NCBI GenBank assembly: GCA_028278645.1
Contig: JANQDZ010000047.1
Location: 1-64,000 of the forward strand
Reading direction: 5' to 3'
DNA: 64,000 bases
DNA from: Longimicrobiales bacterium
GTDB taxonomy: Bacteria > Gemmatimonadota > Gemmatimonadetes > Longimicrobiales > Gaopeijiaceae
A program made the position numbers and the translations under genes. Of the stretch, positions 42,106-42,453 are shown one piece after another (position 1 is the first letter of the stretch; each line of letters starts with the position of its first letter). The notes under the pieces are model-generated. The model searched no databases. It was not told where the DNA came from and saw only the letters and a program-made list of their open reading frames with translations.

Positions 42106-42453
42106 ATGCCCAATACTCTGGAATGGCGGTATCACCGCCCTGGCTGAACCAGCTGCAAACGCACGCAAGAGTTTCTTGCGCAGAACAACATCGGTGACGG
42201 CAAAGTTCAGAACGCCAAAGACGCCATTGACGCGGACGGCGCTCTGGCCCTCCTGAAGGGGATCAAGGATCTGTACGTGGCCAAGGGGAAGAAGACGGTC
42301 CACTTCAACATGGCCAAGGACCGCCCGGCCGACGAGGAGATTCTGGCCTTGATCATGGGGCGGTCGGGGAAGCTCAGGGCTCCGGCAATTCGGAAGGGAT
42401 CAACCCTGGTGGTGGGGTTTAACCTGGACATCTATTCGGAAGCTCTGGGCTGA
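42106..42453 (+). CDS. Predicted selenoprotein: ArsC/Spx-like thioredoxin-fold protein with UGA-encoded Sec (U-x-x-C)
   Basis: An open frame of 115 codons (ATG 42106, stop 42451-42453) containing one internal TGA at 42145-42147. Read with Sec, the N-terminus is MPNTLEWRYHRPG-U-TSCKRTQEFL, giving a U14-T-S-C17 redox motif in the place of CxxC. The rest matches the ArsC/YffB/Spx-like family: LYVAKGKKTVHF, then GKLRAPAIRKGSTLVVGF and NLDIYSEALG. Downstream of the TGA there is a perfect 7-bp hairpin with a GTT loop (42164-42180), at the distance and with the loop G expected for a bacterial SECIS. No strong ribosome site was seen. A pseudogene or a sequencing error (TGC to TGA) is the alternative. 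Confidence 0.75.
42164..42180 (+). promoter_or_regulatory. Candidate bacterial SECIS hairpin
   Basis: CGCAAGA (42164-42170), loop GTT (42171-42173), TCTTGCG (42174-42180). The stem begins 16 nt after the in-frame TGA and the loop G is the 24th nucleotide after it, within the range known for bacterial SECIS elements, whose small apical loops need an early G followed by U. It would recruit SelB to decode UGA as selenocysteine. Confidence 0.7.

Follow-up and report, generated by a model that had tools for sequence, protein, structure and literature searches.

Is the reading frame at positions 42106-42453 of the window (the whole stretch of DNA analysed, 64,000 nucleotides long, from a Gemmatimonadota-like genome) a broken gene, or is the TGA codon that interrupts it read as selenocysteine (Sec)? 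Only fragments are seen at this place by plain ORF callers. On inspection of the sequence, the frame starts with the ATG at 42106 and contains a single internal TGA, which lies in the motif YHRPG-U-TSC and is separated from a cysteine by two residues (U14-T-S-C17). A sequence-only reading of the locus had placed this TGA at the position of a redox cysteine, in a frame that is protein-like on both sides, and this is how the locus is found to be organised: the TGA is aligned with Cys10 of Spx, a single profile match spans residues 5 to 110, and a homologue from the same genus, also with one TGA, is 82% identical over its full length. The features of the locus are gathered in Table 1.

Table 1. 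Features of the putative selenoprotein gene in the window.
Feature	Positions	Strand	Basis
Selenoprotein gene, ArsC/Spx-like (NF041106), 115 residues	42106-42453	+	Sequence, profile match and homologues
In-frame TGA, Sec14, aligned with Cys10 of the Spx CxxC	42145-42147	+	TGA in the best 80 homologue loci
TGC codon, Cys17, second residue of UxxC	42154-42156	+	Kept in 79 of the best 80 named homologues
Bacterial SECIS-like hairpin, stem 42164-42170 / 42174-42180, GTT apical loop 42171-42173	42164-42180	+	Conservation, covariation and codon choice
Terminal stop TGA	42451-42453	+	

The Sec machinery, the conserved TGA, a covarying hairpin and the alignment with Spx Cys10 all agree with what the sequence-only reading had proposed, namely an ArsC/Spx-like selenoprotein with a UxxC motif. 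The seemingly broken gene is almost certainly intact, its apparent stop codon being read as selenocysteine at a redox active site, and what looks like an interrupted ORF would be a working selenoprotein gene. In this same gene, TGA serves both as the Sec codon and as the terminal stop; Sec decoding would thus depend on the hairpin that follows the first TGA.

Conservation of the TGA codon

A total of 84,980 named genomes were scanned with a WRYHRPG-like pattern, and the best 80 loci were kept. As the pattern lies upstream of the TGA codon, it gives no preference to TGA over Cys. TGA stands at the Sec codon in all 78 loci that fit the motif and, on inspection, in the 2 others, and none of these best 80 named homologue loci has a Cys at this position. 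Cys homologues had been suggested as a check of the locus; the close relatives turn out to have TGA throughout, and only in the Spx and ArsC families, which are more distant, is there a Cys at the equivalent position. Most of the best 80 loci are from Gemmatimonadota; Latescibacterota, Methylomirabilota and Acidobacteriota account for some others, and a few lie on MAG contigs labelled as Gammaproteobacteria. Cys17 is also kept in all of them except L138, which has a Tyr.

A clear homologue, with one TGA in every case, occurs in 65 of the 146 genomes examined from the order. selA is present in 62 of these 65 carriers, as compared to 40 of the 81 non-carriers (Fisher p = 4e-10, shared ancestry being ignored), and the three carriers without selA are genomes that are 73-89% complete. 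The family, known from computation only, is widespread in Gemmatimonadota and found only with Sec. As no Cys form was found, selenium chemistry is suggested to be needed for the task of the family, in which case a deletion or a Sec-to-Cys swap would be informative.

Two minor observations concern single loci. The copies on the Gammaproteobacteria-labelled MAG contigs (L112, L113, L116 and L117) are close to those of Gemmatimonadota, and these contigs are probably mis-binned or mislabelled, or else the gene was transferred. In L138, near position 1382, the Sec codon is kept and the second Cys is replaced by Tyr (TAC), which may reflect a sequencing error or else a monoselenol variant.

A SECIS-like hairpin downstream of the TGA codon

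A perfect 7-bp hairpin with a GTT loop, starting 16 nt after the TGA, had been noticed from the letters of the window, and it is indeed found there (CGCAAGA-GTT-TCTTGCG; 16 nt between TGA and stem, loop beginning 24 nt after the TGA). As in bacterial SECIS elements, it lies just 3' of the UGA and has a G near the start of the apical loop. On its own, the hairpin is weak evidence for a SECIS, because 33 comparable sites turned up when the 64-kb window was scanned loosely for TGA codons that precede 60 or more open codons and a hairpin, led by G, with a stem of 7 bp or longer. Nor does the folding energy of the region stand out (mean z of -0.57 relative to the synonymous-codon null), and it was given no weight as evidence. 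No match was obtained when the window was scanned with Rfam at gathering thresholds, and the SECIS was therefore tested through conservation.

Of the 78 homologues scanned, which come from the best 80 loci, 77 have all seven pairs at the same place. In 27 representative sequences, compensatory changes are seen at pair 2 (G-C, U-A or C-G) and at pair 4 (A-U or G-C), and pair 2 is also A-U in some further homologues (CACAAGA/TCTTGTG). The covariation score is 0.380 versus 0.171 for shuffled alignments, it is reached by none of 500 shuffles, and all slid registers are well below. With synonymous codons as the null, a probability of 0.004 is obtained for the pairing seen in the window gene, and the median for 79 genes is 0.002; since these genes are related, the values are not to be multiplied. 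By these comparisons, the conservation of the putative SECIS exceeds chance. Codon usage points in the same direction. CTT or CTC is used for the Leu codon, the tenth after Sec, in 79/79 genes, with CTG the commonest elsewhere in the same genes, and the Phe codon just before it is TTT in 72/79, for 20 TTT versus 84 TTC elsewhere; judged from this usage, the hairpin codons are chosen for pairing.

As the stem is located inside the coding frame, its RNA pairs couple residues of the protein. The resulting combinations include TQEFLA (ACG CAA GAG TTT CTT GCG), TREFLE (ACT CGA GAG TTT CTC GAG) and AQEFLV (GCA CAA GAG TTT CTT GTG): the Thr/Ala codon has a silent third base that varies with the Ala/Glu/Val codon, and the third base of the Leu codon, silent as well, varies with the Gln/Arg codon.

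Selenocysteine machinery of the source genome

The source genome (4.9 Mb, 95.6% complete) contains selA, selB, selC and selD, the four genes whose presence had been proposed as a check. selA (532.7 bits) and selB (317.8 bits) are over their cut-offs in profile searches, as is the tRNA-Sec (75.4 bits), which ARAGORN also calls as tRNA-SeC with a TCA anticodon. selD (L010) is over its cut-off too and carries an in-frame TGA. With this codon taken as Sec, the catalytic site reads UACKLG, and the selD of this genome appears to encode a selenoprotein in its own right.

Family assignment

The window protein matches the NCBIfam model NF041106, 'ArsC family (seleno)protein', over its whole length (121.7 bits for a cut-off of 85; model positions 1-107 of 107). 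All 29 members of A1 match the model too. The window protein is also above the gathering score of Pfam ArsC (27.7 versus 24 bits). Its single Sec, in a UxxC motif, is the form listed for NF041106 in the table of a 2026 review (PMC13188914). With the same whole-domain profile, one Sec and UxxC, the window protein has no feature that sets it apart, and the gene is a further member of this known family and opens no new class.

The novelty implied by the sequence-only reading was thus not upheld: a UxxC ArsC-like selenoprotein is already reported in the 2008 Global Ocean Sampling study ('Arsenate reductase 2, cd03032, UxxC', 42 sequences; PMC2398784), and it is tabulated again in a 2022 review (PMC9312934). 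NF041106 is the same family as the one that Zhang & Gladyshev 2008 (PMC2398784) name 'Arsenate reductase-like protein, UxxC'. The 2026 review describes the functions of such families as largely uncharacterised. Likewise, the statement that standard gene calling misses the gene holds for plain ORF callers, but a pipeline that uses the NF041106 model could detect it. The available parts of these three sources contain neither the SECIS covariation detail nor the all-TGA, no-Cys distribution of the family, both of which were worked out in the present analysis.

Predicted structure, neighbourhood and proposed mechanism

The residues invariant in the family are W7, Y9, R11, P12, G13, Sec14, Cys17, F23, L24, R91, A92, P93, G98 and G104. 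In an AlphaFold2 model with Sec modelled as Cys (pLDDT 93.0, pTM 0.85), residue 14 lies just before helix 1, which starts at residue 15. The nearest fold match is Spx, at a moderate level (TM about 0.54), followed by YffB, with smaller glutaredoxin-type proteins further down. YffB (1rw1, 2kok) likewise has an ArsC-like fold without the full arginine triad of ArsC; it is a proposed glutathione-dependent thiol reductase, and the Brucella protein has a single Cys (PMC3169414), in contrast to the Sec-Cys pair of the window protein. The genes flanking the locus encode an ABM-domain protein and a creatininase (Pfam). No partner gene is shared across 78 loci and the window, co-linearity being lineage-specific only; the neighbourhood therefore indicates no more specific role, substrate or reductant.

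The explanation that we favour, and hold to be highly probable as a whole, is that of an NF041106 selenoprotein in which the hairpin directs Sec insertion at UGA codon 14 and which acts as a Sec-Cys oxidoreductase not using arsenate. SelB and tRNA-Sec would decode the UGA as selenocysteine, under the direction of the mRNA hairpin 16 nt downstream. Genomic and comparative evidence supports these steps through the Sec machinery, the conservation of the UGA, and the conservation and covariation of the hairpin. The product would be a small oxidoreductase of the thioredoxin fold. Located where helix 1 begins, its Sec14 selenol would attack an oxidised substrate, be it a disulfide, a sulfenic acid or a peroxide. 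The Sec14 adduct would then be resolved by Cys17 as a selenenylsulfide, to be reduced by a thiol donor, e.g. thioredoxin or a low-molecular-weight thiol. We infer that the role is most likely that of a selenol/thiol-disulfide oxidoreductase, and not arsenate reduction, because the protein lacks the arginines with which ArsC holds arsenate.

Alternative readings of the locus

A real stop or an assembly error, with the locus as a pseudogene or two fragments, would explain why plain ORF callers see only pieces of the gene. This has almost no chance of being correct, as the same TGA is found in all homologues, in independent assemblies and several phyla, with sequence conserved on both sides and the hairpin maintained; conservation of the TGA, of its flanks and of the hairpin refutes it in practice. 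Decoding of the TGA as another residue, e.g. as Trp by near-cognate readthrough, is hardly more credible: the codon is aligned with the redox Cys of Spx, the genome has Sec machinery, the relatives keep the hairpin, and selA is found in nearly all carriers.

Two other readings accept selenocysteine but assign it another function, and both were down-weighted because key residues are missing. The protein could be an Spx/MgsR-like regulator (TIGR01617, PF03960), whose Sec-Cys pair would be a redox switch and which would act through contact with the alpha subunit of RNA polymerase, to which it would bind. Among solved structures, Spx is the nearest relative, both by sequence and by fold; it shares the ArsC-like thioredoxin fold, U14-C17 is aligned with its C10-C13 switch, Sec standing for the first Cys, and the position of its G52 is often Gly in the family, including the window protein. 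This Gly is, however, not kept in all family members, the four residues directly before it are absent, making the window protein four residues shorter there, and strands (55-60 and 63-68) are predicted where Spx has helix alpha-4. Spx R92, which is described as moving between the oxidised and reduced forms, is replaced by an invariant Ala. At the position of R60, which is needed for activation, the window protein has a Lys, and most of the family has Lys or Arg there (roles of both Spx residues from PMC2801614). With K60, A92 and 31.7 bits for TIGR01617, far from the cut-off of 75.05, we consider this regulatory role improbable. A selenium-dependent arsenate reductase, as the database name of the family would have it, is less probable still, and very unlikely. 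ArsC and the window protein belong to one superfamily and both have a catalytic chalcogen residue where helix 1 starts; the window protein differs in having a second redox residue, Cys17. The Pfam ArsC match does speak for this reading. Nevertheless, the three arginines that are essential in E. coli ArsC and needed for arsenate (R60, R94 and R107; PMC3169414) correspond to K60, the invariant A92 and F105, TIGR00014 (arsC) is absent from the profile matches of the window protein, and no arsenic-resistance genes are found among the immediate neighbours examined with Pfam.

Beyond the oxidoreductase that we favour, a wider reading can only be put forward tentatively, and is rather doubtful in its entirety. 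Within the ArsC/Spx superfamily, the family may form a branch in which Sec is obligate and for which no Cys counterpart is known. It would have lost the Spx residues as well as arsenate chemistry, and would serve a selenium-dependent redox process in Gemmatimonadota and a few other phyla, with a SECIS hairpin that would also shape the protein through the coupled residues described above.

Related TGA-containing genes

A clade of genus g83 (FYQRPG-U-TSC; L160, G201:C38:74702-74992, and about a dozen genomes) has TGA in all its members. It scores 64-74 bits in the genome search, just below the NF041106 cut-off, and may be missed by the curated model.

A second, divergent ArsC-like gene with a TGA occurs in genus g9, in the motif EKPT-U-TTC (L158, G078:C68:97633-97959; L159, G043:C59:17398-17736; also G103 and G113). 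It retains the ArsC arginines (LLRTR, LQRPI, VIGRP) and reaches 99.7 bits with TIGR00014, for a cut-off of 106. This gene may encode a selenium-dependent arsenate reductase of the UxxC type, as opposed to the UxxS of the listed arsenate reductase selenoprotein.
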